Assembly (NCBI RefSeq): GCF_009914765.1
Contig: NZ_WYDS01000016.1
Coordinates: forward strand, 62,001-126,000
DNA: 64,000 nt
Reading direction: 5' to 3'
From: Halodesulfovibrio sp. MK-HDV
Lineage (GTDB): Bacteria; Desulfobacterota; Desulfovibrionia; Desulfovibrionales; Desulfovibrionaceae
Made by a program: the position numbers and the translations under genes. How positions within the stretch are numbered: position 1 is the first letter of the stretch; each line of letters begins with the position of its first letter. Shown here piece after piece: positions 1,491-22,600 of the stretch. The notes under the pieces were generated by a model. The model was not told the DNA's origin. It saw only the letters and a list, made by a program, of their open reading frames with translations, and searched no databases.

Positions 1491-1633
1491 AGACTAAAGT
1501 CAGCACACTATAAAAAATATTGATCCAAAAACTCGAATGAATATCACATATTCACGACACACAAACTTTTTGAAAATGAGCTCTACGTTCTAATCTGGAA
1601 AATTCAAAATAAGCACTGTTACCCTTTCTGCTC

Positions 1634-2230
1634 TCAAATAAAGGGCAGTACAACGGAAAGAGAATGCTCTACACTAGATTCTTTTTCACCGGTAGGCGCG
1701 ACATAGTGTATTGCAGATTCAGCTGATTCTCTGCCTGCAATCTTTGCTATAATCCAAGTAGCCAAATATTGAGAAGCCATACAGCCACCTGCTGTAGCTA
1801 TATTGCCTTTTGCAAAAAATGGATCATCTAAGACCTTGATTCCAGCATCCATCACCCAAGGCTTAGTTGTTAAATCTGTACAAGCAGGTATACCATCAAG
1901 CAACCCCAATACTCCCAAAAGCAACGTGCCCGAGCACTGAGCGCAGATCACTTGCCTTTGCGAATCTAAACTCAATCTACCCAGTATCTCATCATCCTTT
2001 GCAACATCACGAGTACATACACCGCTACCGAAAATAACGACATCTGCACTATTTGCGAACTCCAAAGGCTGCTGCGCTGTAACGGTTACTCCGTTCATTG
2101 ATGTTACAGTCTCTTTAGGACATGTAATCTGTACATTCCATCCAAATTCTTTCATTCGGTTTAAGATACCTAGAGCTATAAATGAGTCCAGCTCGTTAAA
2201 TCCATCAAAGGTTAAAATCGCTATATTCAT
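1634..2230 (-). CDS. DJ-1/PfpI family protein
   Basis: A 198-residue protein with the class I glutamine-amidotransferase-like fold. The likely reactive residue is Cys99 in the nucleophile elbow AQCSG, with Cys96 three residues before it. The N-terminal strand NIAILTFDGF and the GGCMASQYLATWI region are typical of the DJ-1/PfpI group that includes isonitrile hydratase-like and transcription-factor-associated members. The substrate cannot be told from sequence; chaperone, deglycase-like or hydratase roles are all possible. A good ribosome site (GGAGGTAA) lies just upstream of the ATG at 2230. It stands alone, convergent with the MarC gene. Confidence 0.8.
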   Translation of the reverse strand: MNIAILTFDGFNELDSFIALGILNRMKEFGWNVQITCPKETVTSMNGVTVTAQQPLEFANSADVVIFGSGVCTRDVAKDDEILGRLSLDSQRQVICAQCSGTLLLGVLGLLDGIPACTDLTTKPWVMDAGIKVLDDPFFAKGNIATAGGCMASQYLATWIIAKIAGRESAESAIHYVAPTGEKESSVEHSLSVVLPFI

Positions 2231-2572
2231 TAGTTACCTCCAGTTAGAGCACATAATTATTTCTATTTTTCTTAAATTAATAATGACTGGAGCATACCTT
2301 ATATCCTCTGTCAATCTGACCACCAAAGGCAGCATGTTCTGCCTTTGCAAGTGTTAATGTGATCATCACCAATGATTCACCGATAACGCTTTGTAAAAAA
2401 AATTCATGATTCCGCTCTATCTACCCATCTCCGTCCTCGCGCCACACACACAACTACTCTAAACCTTAAGAACTCTTTTGCACACAAAACTGCACACACG
2501 CCAGTAAATAACAACCTATGTTCATTTAATATTCTCTTGGAACAGCGTGAAGGAGATGCTGTCATCCACACA

Positions 2573-2584
2573 ACATGTGCAATT
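2573..2584 (+). promoter_or_regulatory. Candidate enhancer (upstream activator) site, copy 1
   Basis: The 12-base word ACATGTGCAATT occurs here and again, identically, at 3681-3692, in each case 100-150 bases upstream of a sigma-54-type promoter. That spacing suits an upstream site for a bacterial enhancer-binding protein. The function is inferred. Confidence 0.45.
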
Positions 2585-2673
2585 ATAGACACATACATGT
2601 ATATATTTTGTACACAATTTGCTTATATAAAAACTGCACAACTGCAAGTAGCTGAAATACTGTACACGTTTTT

Positions 2674-2692
2674 TTGGTACATCTATTGCTAT
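2674..2692 (+). promoter_or_regulatory. Sigma-54-type promoter upstream of zinc-ribbon gene 1
   Basis: The sequence TTGGTACATCTATTGCTA carries GG at 2676-2677 and GC at 2688-2689, the exact 12-base spacing of -24/-12 elements. It differs from the consensus TGGCAC-N5-TTGC at one position (T for C). A run of seven T precedes it. Transcription would start near 2701 and give a leader of about 230 bases. Confidence 0.6.
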
Positions 2693-2724
2693 ATCCAAAG
2701 TACGTGTGATGCATTTTACACGTG

Positions 2725-2835
2725 ACATGATGGCTGCATTATAATGAGGAAACTTCACTACTACTATGTAGATCGTTTTTTACTCTATCCGTTAACTATC
2801 CAATGCATTGTGCATTTATAATGCAGTCATCATGT
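2725..2835. repeat. Imperfect inverted repeat pair (22-23 base arms)
   Basis: The arm at 2725-2746 (ACATGATGGCTGCATTATAA then TG) is the reverse complement of 2813-2835 apart from one substitution and one extra base. The spacer is 66 bases. The left arm contains TATAAT on the + strand and the right arm contains TATAAA on the - strand, so the arms could be paired operators over opposed promoters or the stem of a long hairpin in the leader. Confidence 0.6.
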
Positions 2836-2864
2836 ACTCAAACACTCAGTTATTAAATAAAGAA

Positions 2865-2906
2865 TATGCACATAAGATGAGATTTATGCAGTTATGCACA
2901 TAAGAT
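2865..2906. repeat. Direct repeat TATGCACATAAGAT x2
   Basis: The 14-base word TATGCACATAAGAT occurs at 2865-2878 and 2893-2906, a 28-base period, ending 23 bases before the start codon of the zinc-ribbon gene. The position suits a regulator or RNA-binding site in the leader. The exact repeat is seen; the role is inferred. Confidence 0.6.
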
Positions 2907-2929
2907 CATCATGTATGGCGAGGATAATT

Positions 2930-3262
2930 ATGAATTGTCCAAATTGCAGCACAAAACTGCATATGACGGAACGAAAAGGCATTGAAATTGATTTCTGTCC
3001 AGACTGTCGAGGCGTATGGCTCGACAGGGGCGAGCTGGATAAAATTTTAGAAAAAAGTATCGCCGAAGAACAGGAATACAGCAGGCCGCAGGCGTCACAG
3101 CAAGTCATGCAGCCCACCTCATCCGGTTTTCCAGATGCGCAGCAACGCAAAGATTATGATTCGCACAATTACAAACATGGAAAGCATAAACACGGACACG
3201 GACACGAGCAATACGGACACAAAAAAAGCCGTAAGCCATGGTTCATGGAACTATTCGACTAA
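2930..3262 (+). CDS. TFIIB-type zinc-ribbon protein 1 with His-rich tail
   Basis: A 110-residue protein. Residues 1-40 form a TFIIB-type zinc ribbon: CPNC at the N-terminus, then FCPDCRGVWLDRGELDKIL, giving four cysteines for one zinc. The middle is Gln/Pro-rich and disordered-looking, and residues 75-100 are rich in His and Lys (KHGKHKHGHGHEQYGHKK), a likely additional metal-binding stretch. These small proteins are widespread in Proteobacteria and their function is not established. I chose the ATG at 2930 because it gives the usual MNCPNC start and has GAGGA upstream. A paralogue lies at 4033, and both have sigma-54-type promoters. Confidence 0.8.
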   Translation: MNCPNCSTKLHMTERKGIEIDFCPDCRGVWLDRGELDKILEKSIAEEQEYSRPQASQQVMQPTSSGFPDAQQRKDYDSHNYKHGKHKHGHGHEQYGHKKSRKPWFMELFD

Positions 3263-3315
3263 AAAATTTTGCATATACCTCTATGATGAAAAGCAGCAGT
3301 TGTTATCAAGTAAGC

Positions 3316-3344
3316 CGTATAACAGCCCCCCAGTCAGTTATACG
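3316..3344 (+). repeat. Short inverted repeat (hairpin) after zinc-ribbon gene 1
   Basis: CGTATAAC at 3316-3323 is perfectly complementary to GTTATACG at 3337-3344 around a C-rich 13-base loop (AGCCCCCCAGTCA). There is no T run, so it is not an ordinary terminator. It may be a processing or stability element at the 3' end of the upstream gene, or an operator for the RNA that follows. Confidence 0.5.
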
Positions 3345-3358
3345 AAGGTGATCGCTTA

Positions 3359-3628
3359 GAGCCGCAAATACTCTTCGGCAGCAGACTATGTGGCTCAATT
3401 TGATAACTTCGAAAGCTCATATCCCCGCATAGCAATACAGTCACTTTCTAAGGATGCTATGCAGGATGAATCTAACATCTTAGCCGACGGGGTAAGGAGC
3501 CCCTTCAACCACGCGGAACTCAGCCGCGTGAGGCAGAGCATAATTGAACTTCTTTCCTCCTGAAAAAAGAAGAGCAAATCGTACGATCCTAAGCATAAAA
3601 GGGTGAGTTCTAACGAACTCACCCTTTT
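3359..3628 (+). ncRNA. Candidate structured non-coding RNA with its own terminator
   Basis: This stretch holds successive local hairpins: GAGCCGCA/TGTGGCTC (3359-3396, one G-U), GCATAGCA/TGCTATGC (3427-3462), GGGG/CCCC (3489-3503), CACGCGG/CCGCGTG (3510-3530) and CTTCTTT/AAAGAAG (3549-3572), then a strong terminator at 3597-3628. That density of 7-8 bp stems is well above chance. I do not recognise it as 6S, SRP, RNase P, tmRNA or a known riboswitch. The ends are guesses. An alternative is a protein relic: frame 3 is open from 3360 to 3563 but follows a TAG, lacks an ATG near its beginning and has no ribosome site. Confidence 0.45.
3597..3628 (+). terminator. Rho-independent terminator
   Basis: AAAAGGGTGAGTTC pairs with GAACTCACCCTTTT across a TAAC loop, a 14 bp stem ending in T-rich DNA. 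The symmetry would let it act in both directions, but no gene ends against it from the right. Confidence 0.85.
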
Positions 3629-3678
3629 CTATTTCCATATTCCATTTCCGTATTTCATTTTTACTGACACATCATAGC

Positions 3679-3692
3679 GCACATGTGCAATT
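3679..3692 (+). promoter_or_regulatory. Candidate enhancer (upstream activator) site, copy 2
   Basis: A perfect 10-base palindrome, GCACATGTGC, extended by AATT to share 12 identical bases with 2573-2584. It lies about 146 bases upstream of the -24 element at 3827, a typical distance for an enhancer-binding-protein site. Confidence 0.5.
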
Positions 3693-3824
3693 TTTAGCCA
3701 CTTTCAGTAAAGGCGTTTAAAAAACATGCACAAGAAACAGCCACCACGAGTGATTTTTAAACACTATTCATATCTACCGTCAGCCATCTACAGATAACAC
3801 ACCAATCTTCATATACTTTCATTT

Positions 3825-3843
3825 TTGGCACGCGCATTGCTTA
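3825..3843 (+). promoter_or_regulatory. Sigma-54 promoter upstream of zinc-ribbon gene 2
   Basis: TTGGCACGCGCATTGCTTA is a full match to the sigma-54 consensus TGGCACG-N4-TTGCW, with GG at 3827-3828 and GC at 3839-3840. Transcription should start near 3852 and lead into the gene at 4033. An RpoN-type promoter needs an enhancer-binding activator, so the gene is probably inducible. Confidence 0.8.
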
Positions 3844-4032
3844 TACAAAAATACGAACCACAAGAACGAATCGATGCAAGATGACTCATGGTTCACATAA
3901 CAGTAATAATAAAAACATATTTTGAGAGGCTACTGAAACAGTAGTTACACAATCAAAATTTAATATCGTAAAAAAATATATACATTTATTAGCATTGCAT
4001 ATCCCTACTGCAGTGCCTTTAAGGAGAATATC

Positions 4033-4350
4033 ATGACATGCCCAAACTGCAACTTAGAACTTACTATCGTTAACCGTAAAGGTGTTGATATAGAGTGCTG
4101 TACTGTCTGCAACGGAGTCTGGATGGAACGCAAAGAGATGGATCGTCTCTTACAGCAAGTGCTTTCCGCTAAACTCACAAATCCAGCACCTAGACGTGTT
4201 CAAACCCCTTCCATATCCCCTACCAGTGAAGAAAGCCTCACTGAAACTGGAAGCGATTACGACACATACTTCGCATACAAGTACCACGGCTGCTATGGCT
4301 TCCCATCCCCTCGCATCGCGCGTGCTAAAAACCTCCTTGAGAAACGCTAA
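4033..4350 (+). CDS. TFIIB-type zinc-ribbon protein 2
   Basis: A 105-residue paralogue of the protein at 2930. The N-terminus is again a four-cysteine zinc ribbon: MTCPNCNLELTIVNRKGVDI, then ECCTVCNGVWMERKEMDRLL. Instead of a His-rich tail it has a Ser/Thr/Pro linker and an aromatic C-terminal stretch (YFAYKYHGCYGF). It has a good ribosome site (AAGGAG, 6 bases before ATG) and a textbook sigma-54 promoter 190 bases upstream. The function of the family is unknown; the shared control with its paralogue suggests a common regulon. Confidence 0.8.
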   Translation: MTCPNCNLELTIVNRKGVDIECCTVCNGVWMERKEMDRLLQQVLSAKLTNPAPRRVQTPSISPTSEESLTETGSDYDTYFAYKYHGCYGFPSPRIARAKNLLEKR

Positions 4351-4407
4351 CCCTCCTTAGCGACAAATAAGCATCAGGCATCCCCAGACACGATGCCTTA
4401 TCCACGC

Positions 4408-4440
4408 AAAAAGCCAGAGACATCCATCTCTGGCTTTTTC
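4408..4440. terminator. Bidirectional terminator after zinc-ribbon gene 2
   Basis: AAAAAGCCAGAGA and TCTCTGGCTTTTT form a 13 bp stem around CATCCA, with A and T runs on both sides. It ends the zinc-ribbon gene 2 transcript and can back up the dxs terminator. Confidence 0.9.
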
Positions 4441-4445
4441 GCATA

Positions 4446-4476
4446 AAAAAAAGCCGAAGCACAATGCTCCGGCTTT
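4446..4476 (-). terminator. Terminator of the xseA-dxs operon
   Basis: Read on the minus strand, GCCGGAGC pairs with GCTTCGGC (one G-U) across ATTGT and is followed by eight T. It lies 110 bases beyond the dxs stop. Confidence 0.85.
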
Positions 4477-4585
4477 CTTCTTATCTATATTCTGTCACCG
4501 CTGCAAAAGCTCATTGGCTTCTGTCACAACTTGCCCTGCCGGAAACATTTCTGTTCCGACACGTCTTGTAACAACAGCTGCTATT

Positions 4586-6499
4586 TTACTTCTTATCGAA
4601 CAATTCCTGAACAGCTTTTTTAATGCCGCTAGTATTGATCCCCAACTGCTCGCGCAATTCAACCTGAGTCCCGTGCTCAATCCATTCGTCAGGAATTCCC
4701 AGACGCTTGATTCTACAGTTACCCAAGGCATCACTGTCTGACAAAAATTCGAGCACCGCAGAAGAAAAACCGCCCTGAAGAACGTTTTCTTCCAACAGCA
4801 ACAATGAATCATGCGTCTTAGCAAGCTCAAGCAACTGTTTTTCCGGCAAAGGTTTTACACAACGCGCATTAAACACGGTTGCCTGCTTTCCAGTTTCTGC
4901 CGCAAGTTCTTTCACTGCTTCAATGGCAGGATATGTGCGGGAACCGACGGAAATAACAGCGACCCCTTCGCCCTGAATCATTATTTCGCCAGTACCAAGA
5001 ACAAACGGTTCCGGTTTCGCTTTCAACGGAACACCGTATCCAGCACCACGCGGGTAGCGAATAGCAACAGGGCCGTCATGAGTAAGCGCAGTCGCCATGC
5101 AATCTGCCAATTCAGCCTCGCTTGAAGGAACAAGCACCGTCATATTCGGAATATGGCGCATGAAGCTCAAATCAAACACACCATGATGCGTAGGTCCATC
5201 TTCACCCACAAGACCACCACGATCCAGACAGAATGTTACTGGCAGATTCTGTAAACAGACATCATGAACAATCTGATCATATGCTCGCTGCATAAATGTA
5301 GAATAAATCGCCACAAACGGACGATATCCCTGTGTAGCAAGCCCTGCTGCAAATGTTACAGCATGCTGTTCACAGATGCCTACATCAATGAAGCGATCAG
5401 GAAATTTCTTTTCAAAACAAGCTGTTCCAGTACCTTCAGGCATTGCCGCAGTAATCGCCATAATGCGATCATCCTGCTTTGCTAACTGGCACAACGTATC
5501 GCCAAACACATCTGTGTACGTCGGTACAGAATTAACCTTAGCGACTTTTTTCGCCTGACCGGTTTCCGGTTCAAACTGCCCTACACCGTGGAAAAATGTC
5601 GGGTTGGATTCAGCAGGAGCATAGCCCTTGCCCTTTTTGGTGAGAACATGCAGCAGCACTGGCTCATCCAAATCCTGATAAAGTCTGAATGCACGTTGCA
5701 GCGCTTTAATATCGTGTCCGTCAATCGGTCCCATGTAGTTAAATTCGAATGCTTCAAACAGCATTCCGGGCGTAAAGAAACTCTTTAAACTAAGTTCACT
5801 TTTGCGAGCATAGTTAAGCATTTCTTCGCCAATGGCAGGAACCGCATTGAGGATTGTCTCAACATCTTTCTTAAATCGACGCACCCAGCGAGAAGACAAG
5901 TTGCGAGACATAAAGTGGGACATTGCCCCGACGTTTTTGGAAATGGACATCTCATTATCGTTGAGGATAACGAGCATTTTTTTATCTGTATGCCCCGCCA
6001 GATTAAGCCCTTCAAAGGCAAGACCAGCGGTCATGGAGCCATCTCCGATAATGGAGATTACTTCATTCTTTTTGCCGGAAAGATCGCGAGCAACAGCCAT
6101 GCCTAATGCAGCGGAAATGGAAGTAGAAGAATGCCCTACGCCAAAATGATCGTACTCACTTTCTGCAATCTTAGGAAAACCACTTACACCGTCTTTTTTT
6201 CTCAGTGTATGAAAATTATCCTTACGTCCAGTAAGCAGTTTCCATGCATACGCTTGATGCCCGACATCCCATACCAATTTGTCATGATCAAAATCAAAAA
6301 CTGACATCAATGCAAGGGTCAATTCAACCACTCCAAGAGAAGGGGCAAGGTGACCACCTGTCTGGGAAACTGTGGAAATTATCTCTTCGCGCAACTCCTC
6401 GGCAAGCTGCTCAAGCTGAGCTTGATCAAGCTTACGTACATCGGACGGCAAATTGATGCTGTCCAATAGGCGAGGAGAAGATTGGCTCTTATCTGGCAT
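4586..6499 (-). CDS. dxs: 1-deoxy-D-xylulose-5-phosphate synthase
   Basis: A 637-residue thiamine-diphosphate enzyme, full length for the family. It condenses pyruvate with glyceraldehyde 3-phosphate, the first and usually rate-setting step of the MEP isoprenoid pathway, and also feeds thiamine and pyridoxal synthesis. Visible features: the VGHSSTS histidine motif, the TPP/Mg motif GDGSMTAG followed by EGLN, the transketolase-type DVGICEQHAVTFAAG segment with the catalytic Glu, and the DRGGLVGEDGPTHHG block. It is last in the xseA-M23-xseB-ispA-dxs run, 66 bases after ispA, so the first MEP enzyme is co-transcribed with a prenyl synthase that uses its product. Confidence 0.97.
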   Translation of the reverse strand: MPDKSQSSPRLLDSINLPSDVRKLDQAQLEQLAEELREEIISTVSQTGGHLAPSLGVVELTLALMSVFDFDHDKLVWDVGHQAYAWKLLTGRKDNFHTLRKKDGVSGFPKIAESEYDHFGVGHSSTSISAALGMAVARDLSGKKNEVISIIGDGSMTAGLAFEGLNLAGHTDKKMLVILNDNEMSISKNVGAMSHFMSRNLSSRWVRRFKKDVETILNAVPAIGEEMLNYARKSELSLKSFFTPGMLFEAFEFNYMGPIDGHDIKALQRAFRLYQDLDEPVLLHVLTKKGKGYAPAESNPTFFHGVGQFEPETGQAKKVAKVNSVPTYTDVFGDTLCQLAKQDDRIMAITAAMPEGTGTACFEKKFPDRFIDVGICEQHAVTFAAGLATQGYRPFVAIYSTFMQRAYDQIVHDVCLQNLPVTFCLDRGGLVGEDGPTHHGVFDLSFMRHIPNMTVLVPSSEAELADCMATALTHDGPVAIRYPRGAGYGVPLKAKPEPFVLGTGEIMIQGEGVAVISVGSRTYPAIEAVKELAAETGKQATVFNARCVKPLPEKQLLELAKTHDSLLLLEENVLQGGFSSAVLEFLSDSDALGNCRIKRLGIPDEWIEHGTQVELREQLGINTSGIKKAVQELFDKK

Positions 6500-21349: not shown

Positions 21350-22600
21350 TTAAGAAGCAGTCTTTGCCTCATTCTCATAAATAAGCATAGGCTCTTTTCC
21401 TTCTTCAACTACCGCTCTGTTGACTACGCACTCCTTAACACCCTTAAGGGAAGGAAGATGGTACATAATTTCAAGCATGATAGATTCCATTACGTTACGC
21501 AGTCCCCTGGCACCAGTCTTGCGTTCAATGGCCTGACGGGCAATCGCTTTAAGGGCGTTAGTGGTAATACGTAATGAAACTTTGTCGAATTCAAAAAGCT
21601 TCTGGTACTGACGTACAAGCGCGTTTTTAGGCTCAGAAAGAATACGTACAAGGTCGTCTTCGCCAAGCTCTTCAACACAAGTAATGACAGGAATACGCCC
21701 GATAAATTCAGGAATAAGACCAAACTTTACAAGGTCGTTAGGCTGTACTTGTGACAACAAGGAGGAGAGGGACATCTCTTCCTTAACCGTAATTTTTGCA
21801 CCAAAGCCCATTGCCTTGCCGCTCATACGTGTTTCAATGATCTTATCAAGACCAATGAACGCGCCGCCGACAATAAACAGGATGTTAGAGGTATCCATGC
21901 GGATAAACTCTTGCTGAGGATGCTTACGGCCACCTTTAGGTGGAATGTTAGCTACAGTACCTTCAATAATTTTAAGAAGTGCCTGCTGTACACCTTCACC
22001 GGACACGTCACGGGTGATGGACGGGCCGTCACCTTTGCGGGAGATTTTATCAATCTCATCGATGTAGATAATACCTTTTGCAGCGGATTCGATGTCGTAA
22101 TCAGCATTCTGCAAAAGCTGCACAAGAATGTTCTCTACGTCTTCACCAACATACCCTGCTTCAGTGAGGGTTGTCGCATCTGCAATAGCAAACGGAACGT
22201 TAAGAACGCGTGCAAGAGTTTTTGCCAGCAGGGTTTTACCGCTACCGGAAGGACCGGCAAGAAGAATGTTGCTTTTTTCAAGCTCAACATCACCAAGCTT
22301 GTGCTCAAAGAACACACGCTTGTAGTGGTTGTGTACAGCAACAGACAAAATCTTTTTAGCCTGATGCTGACCGATAACATACTCGTCGAGCTTACTTTTA
22401 ATTTCCTCAGGTGTAAGAAGCTGATCGCCATCTTCTATGGCTTCAACACTTTCCTGCGCGATAATCTCGTTACAAAGAGCGATACACTCGTCACAAATGT
22501 AGACTTCTGGACCTGCGATAAGACGAGCAACCTGCTCCTGTCCTTTACCGCAGAAAGTACAATTGAGCTCTTCGTTTTGTTCGATAGAGTTTTTATCCAT
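21350..22600 (-). CDS. clpX: ATP-dependent Clp protease ATP-binding subunit ClpX
   Basis: A 416-residue AAA+ unfoldase. The N-terminal zinc domain has two CxxC pairs ([11 protein letters not shown] and CDECIALC). Walker A is [15 protein letters not shown], Walker [11 protein letters not shown], and the [23 protein letters not shown] block read in order is diagnostic for ClpX. The ClpP-docking loop is the IGL-type motif IGLDK near residue 265. The gene follows clpP directly. A GTG at 22612 overlaps the clpP stop by one base and adds MEYH; the ATG at 22600 gives the family-like start, and the ribosome site is weak for both, so the start is uncertain by four residues. Confidence 0.95.

Follow-up and report, generated by a model that had tools for sequence, protein, structure and literature searches.

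Within the window (the whole stretch of 64,000 nucleotides that was analyzed, from Halodesulfovibrio sp. MK-HDV), a short segment between marC and dxs carries two putative sigma-54 promoters, P1 and P2, a structured RNA predicted to begin at P1, and two small zinc-ribbon proteins, ZnR1 and ZnR2. We consider it probable, on balance, that this locus is switched by sigma-54 and makes a new structured RNA together with small proteins, and that the RNA is functional in its own right. The promoters, their upstream sites, the RNA fold, and its covariation were computed; transcription, the activator, and the action of the RNA were inferred.

Distribution of the locus in the genus

The comparison set consisted of 10 genomes of the genus, with the window's own genome designated G000. 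A version of the locus was present between marC and dxs in 5 of the 10 (G000, G079, G099, G102, and G103). Merely 124 bases separate marC and dxs in G057, and G101 had no close marC match. The RNA model, the ZnR2 tail, and ZnR1 were not found in G100, G021, or G096, where the ORFs that follow the marC-like gene look different. A DJ-1/PfpI-family gene (1634-2230, - strand) lies between marC and P1 in the window; a DJ-1-like ORF was also recognized by eye in G103 (L107), with none listed at that place in G079, G099, G102, or G057. The G102 locus (L106, reverse complement 1491-5058) has ORFs of 590 and 568 amino acids between marC and P1 that look insertion-like.

Promoters and upstream sites

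The following features were located upstream of the two zinc-ribbon genes.

2675 to 2689, + strand: sigma-54 promoter P1, TGGTACATCTATTGC, 1 mismatch to TGGCAC-N5-TTGC
3826 to 3840, + strand: sigma-54 promoter P2, TGGCACGCGCATTGC, 0 mismatches to TGGCAC-N5-TTGC
2573 to 2594, + strand: candidate activator site of P1, in which a 12-mer (2573-2584) shares bases with the left half of a dyad
2575 to 2594, + strand: the dyad before P1, ATGTGC-N8-ACACAT, 100-101 bases upstream in 5 of 5 orthologous loci
2479 to 2496, + strand: far upstream half-sites of P1, a TGCACA-N6-TGCACA direct repeat 196 and 184 bases before the promoter
3681 to 3692, + strand: 12-mer before P2, with TGTGCAATTTTT kept in 4 of 4 P2-bearing loci and the right dyad half not retained
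3727 to 3732, + strand: TGCACA half-site before P2, at 99, 97, 91, and 99 bases in G000, G079, G102, and G103

An earlier sequence-only reading of this DNA had claimed two sigma-54 matches, one exact and one with a single mismatch, and both were verified. Chance alone makes the pattern with up to 2 mismatches frequent in the window (79 matches vs. 66 expected, with 79 reached in 8 of 100 shuffles), and the motif alone is therefore little proof. Genome-wide, the exact pattern occurred 18 times vs. 3 times for the reversed control; 2 of the 18 sites precede ORFs that resembled flagellins when read by eye. One further exact match in the window, at 21508-21522, does not have the 12-mer upstream. 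P1 was found in all 5 syntenic loci, with 0 to 1 mismatches in G079, G102, G103, and G099. P2 was found in 4 of the 5, namely G000 and, with 0 to 1 mismatches, G079, G102, and G103; this second promoter is absent from the G099 locus. Both P1 and P2 match the sigma-54 -24/-12 consensus (TGGCAC-N5-TTGC) and are conserved across species. Their conservation and the TGTGC half-sites upstream support predicted sigma-54 control of both genes.

The shared 12-base word that had been placed 100 to 150 bases upstream of each promoter was confirmed at 102 bases for P1 and 145 bases for P2; ACATGTGCAATT is exact at both positions. Only 3 copies exist in the 4.17-Mb genome (reversed control, 1), the third of them inside an ORF read as RodA/FtsW-like (L001). 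Across species the 12-mer is only partly conserved, with TGTGCAA as the kept core. The dyad before P1 has the consensus ATGTGC-N8-RCACAT, and its scores out of 12 were 11 for G000, 11 for G079, 9 for G102, 12 for G103, and 11 for G099. Of 5000 stretches of 190 bases drawn at random from the window, nine scored 11, none scored 12, and 348 scored at least 9, so the degenerate dyad of G102 proves nothing by itself and its shared position is the argument. The exact dyad has 1 copy in G000, at P1, with a chance expectation of 0.99 per genome, and it also occurs in G100, G021, and G101, which lack the locus. Rarity is thus no argument for the dyad, and position is.

The dyad keeps only its left half at P2 (left and right matches of 6+3, 5+2, 6+1, and 6+0), at distances of 142, 121, 131, and 142 bases from the promoter. 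In our reading, the steps of 21 and 11 bases at P2 and of 42-43 bases between P1 and P2 approximate whole helical turns, with few independent events behind them. The far TGCACA pair of P1 is similarly spaced in G079 (198/186) and G103 (197/185) and wider in G102 (182/131), and the arrangement differs in G099 (130/66). What supports these candidate sites beyond chance is comparative, namely conserved promoters with half-sites and a dyad that appear to be held in position.

A predicted structured RNA at P1

The sequence-only reading overlooked a structured RNA between P1 and ZnR1.

2700 to 2839, + strand: conserved structured RNA of ~140 bases, a 5' hairpin followed by a 19-pair closing stem with inner hairpins
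2782 to 2794, + strand: unpaired segment ACTCTATCCGTTA, single-stranded in the consensus fold, with one position differing, in G103

The sequence separating P1 from ZnR1 contains a long inverted repeat, ACATGATGGCTGCATTATAA / TTATAATGCAGTCATCATGT. The 5' end of the RNA is near the predicted P1 start (+1 = 2701); in the five species the outermost pair of its first helix falls at +2, +1, +2, +2, and -3 relative to the predicted start. The 5 orthologous P1 leaders aligned with a mean column identity of 81%. In their consensus fold, a 5' hairpin precedes a 19-pair stem, inside which lie two small hairpins together with the single-stranded ACUCUAUCCG(U/C)UA. P2 leaders gave no consensus structure; these leaders also align poorly.

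Fold z-scores against shuffles were -6.4, -6.4, -5.1, -3.8, and -5.2 for the five species, and for the G103 RNA 1 of 200 shuffles folded equally well. When 2240-4600 was scanned coarsely, the terminators after ZnR2 had the lowest z-scores (-7.6), and the RNA window ranked fourth (-5.2). Changes on both sides were found in 11 of 38 pairs, compared to a shuffle mean of 4.7 with 0 of 500 shuffles reaching 11 and 0 to 2 for slid partners; these counts come from five related species and from a structure derived from the same alignment, which favors it. By a second covariation measure, further pair types, the result was not beyond shuffles (59 of 500), and 11 of the 19 main-stem pairs are invariant. 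Compensatory changes of the kind expected for one conserved fold were thus present in 11 of 38 pairs of the five sequences, and these double changes are the stronger argument.

No Rfam score came near a gathering threshold, and on that ground the RNA was assigned to no known Rfam family. The RNA model gave a strong match in 5 of 288 family genomes, one place each, and these are its five source sequences. Four weaker rows (E 0.002-0.005) were the opposite strand of the same five places. No further copy was detected in the 288 genomes under the stricter filters of the large scan, which lose some weak matches. Matches of the RNA and ZnR2 tail models in the five loci are uninformative because the models were built from those loci.

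A search for partners of the RNA gave few leads. Sites complementary to the unpaired segment were near the reversed-control count in 4 of 5 genomes, with 20 vs. 12 for the control in G102. In 30 loci drawn from the 101 listed complementary matches, the one five-locus group was the RNA locus itself. The 30 also included three groups of 2 to 3 loci, and the one inspected had no clear gene start. No conserved trans target emerged from these counts and the 30 loci. Duplexes of the RNA with ZnR1 or ZnR2 messages beat the shuffles (equaled by 2 or fewer of 200) in 4 of 16 tests, all in G102 and G103. The unpaired segment led to 72 loci in viral contigs, with one weak match at E 0.05.

ZnR1 and the RNA without it

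A zinc-ribbon ORF had been claimed behind each promoter, and both ORFs were assigned to PF13453 (E 3.7e-19 for ZnR1 and 7.1e-11 for ZnR2).

2930 to 3262, + strand: ZnR1, a 110-amino acid PF13453 zinc-ribbon protein with a His-rich linker and a C-terminal ELFD
3597 to 3628, + strand: terminator-like hairpin GGGTGAGTTC/GAACTCACCC ending the P1 unit, with a similar hairpin in G079, G102, and G103
4033 to 4350, + strand: ZnR2, a 105-amino acid zinc-ribbon protein whose zinc cysteines are lost in three orthologues
4195 to 4296, + strand: conserved C-terminal tail of ZnR2, ~30 residues around PSISPTSEESLTETGSDYDTYFAYKYHG
4408 to 4439, + strand: terminator-like hairpin after ZnR2

PF13453 scores were 68.3 bits for ZnR1 and 41.8 bits for ZnR2 (cut-off 22), and both CxxC pairs are present in each. 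A 14-base exact direct repeat, TATGCACATAAGAT, precedes ZnR1 at 2865-2878 and 2893-2906 and is not conserved in G079. The third PF13453 match in the genome (G000:C5:152250-152321, L008) is a partial one in a 491-residue frame, and relatives have similar partial matches.

True ZnR1 was found in 3 of the 10 genus genomes (G000, G079, and G102). The ZnR1 query matched a fourth, G103, where the match was its ZnR2 (37% identity), and tblastn of the stretches from G103 and G099 at E ≤10 gave no ZnR1 apart from that ZnR2 gene. The RNA is kept in both. In G103, P1 and the RNA are followed by ~350 bases before a terminator-like hairpin, with no frame of more than 50 codons in any of the six frames; in G099, the RNA is followed by a degenerate ZnR2-type ORF. 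ZnR1 appears expendable. Because the RNA persists in these two genomes that lack ZnR1, an RNA function independent of ZnR1 is favored. The G103 state may nevertheless reflect a recent gene loss rather than autonomy of the RNA.

These observations bear on the explanation that the structured element is merely a cis-acting 5' leader of ZnR1, whether riboswitch-like, protein-binding, or a stability element. Its place between P1 and ZnR1 in 3 of 5 species is what a leader would have, and G099 has a ZnR2-type ORF behind the element. However, G103 keeps the element with no trace of ZnR1 and no longer frame ahead of the hairpin, and the gene behind it in G099 is a different one. We regard a mere leader of ZnR1 as possible, although rather unlikely.

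ZnR2 and its tail

Both CxxC pairs are kept in the ZnR2 of G000 and G103 and lost in that of G079, G102, and G099. The tail had dN/dS values of 0.08-0.22 in the 5 of 10 pairs that were computable; the remaining pairs were saturated at synonymous sites, and the five computable ones are not far from saturation. For the ribbon, values were 0.36-0.69 in four pairs with G099 and 0.05-0.26 in three other computable pairs. The low values outside G099 indicate that the ribbon stretch is still constrained there despite the lost cysteines. With the tail model, E was <1e-21 at its five source loci; six other genomes matched only part of the model, at E 0.006-0.05. None of the 288 family genomes carried a strong copy elsewhere. 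No ZnR2 relatives were found in phages or viral contigs.

An AlphaFold model of ZnR2 built with 8 sequences had a mean pLDDT of 63 and a pTM of 0.29. Blocks of the first 40 residues had pLDDT values of 75-83, and the tail was at ~50 with no regular structure. The model is compatible with a disordered tail and is no proof of one. The tail may be a short linear motif.

An interpretation with the weight placed differently, which we hold only tentatively, is that the core of the locus is a sigma-54-switched regulatory RNA family not encountered in our searches, accompanied by a zinc-shedding small protein whose ~30-residue tail is the acting part, and that ZnR1 is an optional passenger.

Regulon and activator

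The sequence-only reading proposed a single enhancer-binding protein for both genes. Conserved promoters and half-sites make this a fair inference, but the full dyad stands only at P1. The wider regulon that it also envisaged gained no support: of the 18 exact sigma-54 sites, the 17 besides P2 all lack the word within 220 bases upstream on either strand, even with 2 mismatches allowed. The 12-mer was dropped as a marker of a wide regulon owing to this absence. No dyad score above 9 was obtained at the 17 sites, and two of them had a single half-site. One-mismatch dyads in G000 gave 43 rows at 31 places vs. 14 rows for the reversed control, many near-symmetric sites being counted on both strands. 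Besides P1 there were 30 such places; 20 were tested, and none had a sigma-54 site with 0 to 1 mismatches 20 to 220 bases away, with a two-mismatch site near 1 of the 20. The survey thus covered the exact sigma-54 sites genome-wide and 20 of 30 near-dyads.

Sigma54_activat matches in G000 numbered 47, of which 41 had E <1e-57; sigma-54 control would therefore be available to this genome. The family is also matched in 14 of 14 control genomes, and its weak matches lack specificity. None of the 47 lies on the window's contig, and a comparison by eye of the near-dyad places with the Sigma54_activat list gave no convincing autoregulated activator. The simplest view is of an activator devoted to the P1/P2 locus or to a few sites.

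Relatives of ZnR1 were collected at 31 named loci, mostly alpha-proteobacterial by title, and at 7 loci from family genomes. One P-type ATPase BLAST group was present in 27 of these 38 loci, not always adjacent, and the single ATPase scanned (L048) was of the heavy-metal type, TIGR01525. The alpha-proteobacterial loci are not independent because their stretches are highly alike. At L048-L076, which come from many Rhodobacterales and are much alike, a P-type ATPase gene and L,D-transpeptidase genes neighbor the ZnR1 relatives. A Sulfitobacter plasmid carries an ATPase gene, then the gene of the zf-TFIIB protein, then that of an L,D-transpeptidase. The context is different on two other plasmids, and a Cupriavidus plasmid record has no annotation at the position of the ZnR1 relative. 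PF13453 relatives of the locus proteins were found on 142 and 134 plasmid records. The ATPase neighbors point weakly to metals for the relatives of ZnR1, and give no such pointer for the RNA or ZnR2.

The idea that P1 and P2 simply serve zinc-ribbon genes of a single metal or redox stress regulon, a possibility raised by the sequence-only reading, draws on the conservation of promoters and half-sites and on these ATPase neighborhoods in alpha-proteobacteria. However, no other member appeared among the 17 exact sites and the 20 of 30 near-dyads, the sole metal or redox candidate noticed beside the locus is the DJ-1-like gene at 2 of 5 syntenic loci, and such a regulon leaves the RNA unaccounted for. 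We consider it improbable. Least credible of all is the idea that a DNA element (a mobile-element remnant or a cruciform binding site) rather than an RNA accounts for the inverted repeat, since the repeat's length and constant ends would suit such an element but it has one strong copy per genome in one syntenic place, compensatory stem changes, a nearly constant single-stranded segment, and a start at the predicted +1 of P1.

Proposed mechanism

Under the favored interpretation, a sigma-54-switched locus with an RNA functional in its own right, both P1 and P2 are probably fired by a single enhancer-binding protein through TGTGCA half-sites. Transcription from P1 would start at the foot of the ~140-nucleotide RNA, whose closing stem would present the nearly constant unpaired ACUCUAUCCGUUA, and in some species the ZnR1 ORF would follow on the same transcript. 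The P2 message would yield ZnR2, a paralogue that has lost its metal cysteines in 3 of 5 species and keeps its conserved C-terminal peptide. The RNA, co-induced with ZnR2, would be either a regulatory RNA or a leader working with whatever lies behind it.

Such a locus would be a compact sigma-54 circuit with paired upstream sites. It also offers a candidate RNA family outside Rfam, whose nearly constant unpaired segment invites searches for a target or ligand. A zinc-ribbon protein that retains its tail while losing its metal site could give a handle on PF13453, a family of unknown function.

Comparison with known systems

Searches of the literature, with most subscription journals outside their scope, found nothing on small bacterial proteins of PF13453 (zf-TFIIB) and, at the level of titles, none naming the P1 RNA among those on small or structured RNAs of Desulfovibrio, which include a non-coding RNA survey of Oleidesulfovibrio alaskensis (PMC11124144). 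ZnR1 and ZnR2 resemble other PF13453 (Zn_ribbon_TFIIB) proteins in scoring above the cut-off. They are unlike them in that three ZnR2 orthologues lack the zinc cysteines and the 288 family genomes gave no strong match to the tail apart from the five loci. Compared to Rfam families, the P1 element is a structured bacterial RNA in kind, with no match near a gathering score.

The closest parallels are in D. vulgaris Hildenborough, for which PMC4641369 describes four sigma-54-dependent non-coding RNAs, and PMC3333781 names Dv_sRNA2 as a sigma-54-dependent non-coding RNA. The comparison with these RNAs is by their published description. Our RNA model matched, among the 288 genomes, only the five that supplied its sequences, all from a single genus. 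Of the 4 D. vulgaris RNAs, 2 lie directly downstream of their regulator gene (PMC4641369); in contrast, no activator domain was found on the contig here. Sigma-54 promoters and enhancer-binding proteins are shared features of the RNAs described in both papers (PMC4641369, PMC3333781) and, as predicted, of the locus studied here. Activator motifs of D. vulgaris are given as TGT/ACA half-sites 9, 11, or 12 bp apart in PMC4641369, and the dyad before P1, TGT-N12-ACA, has the same form.
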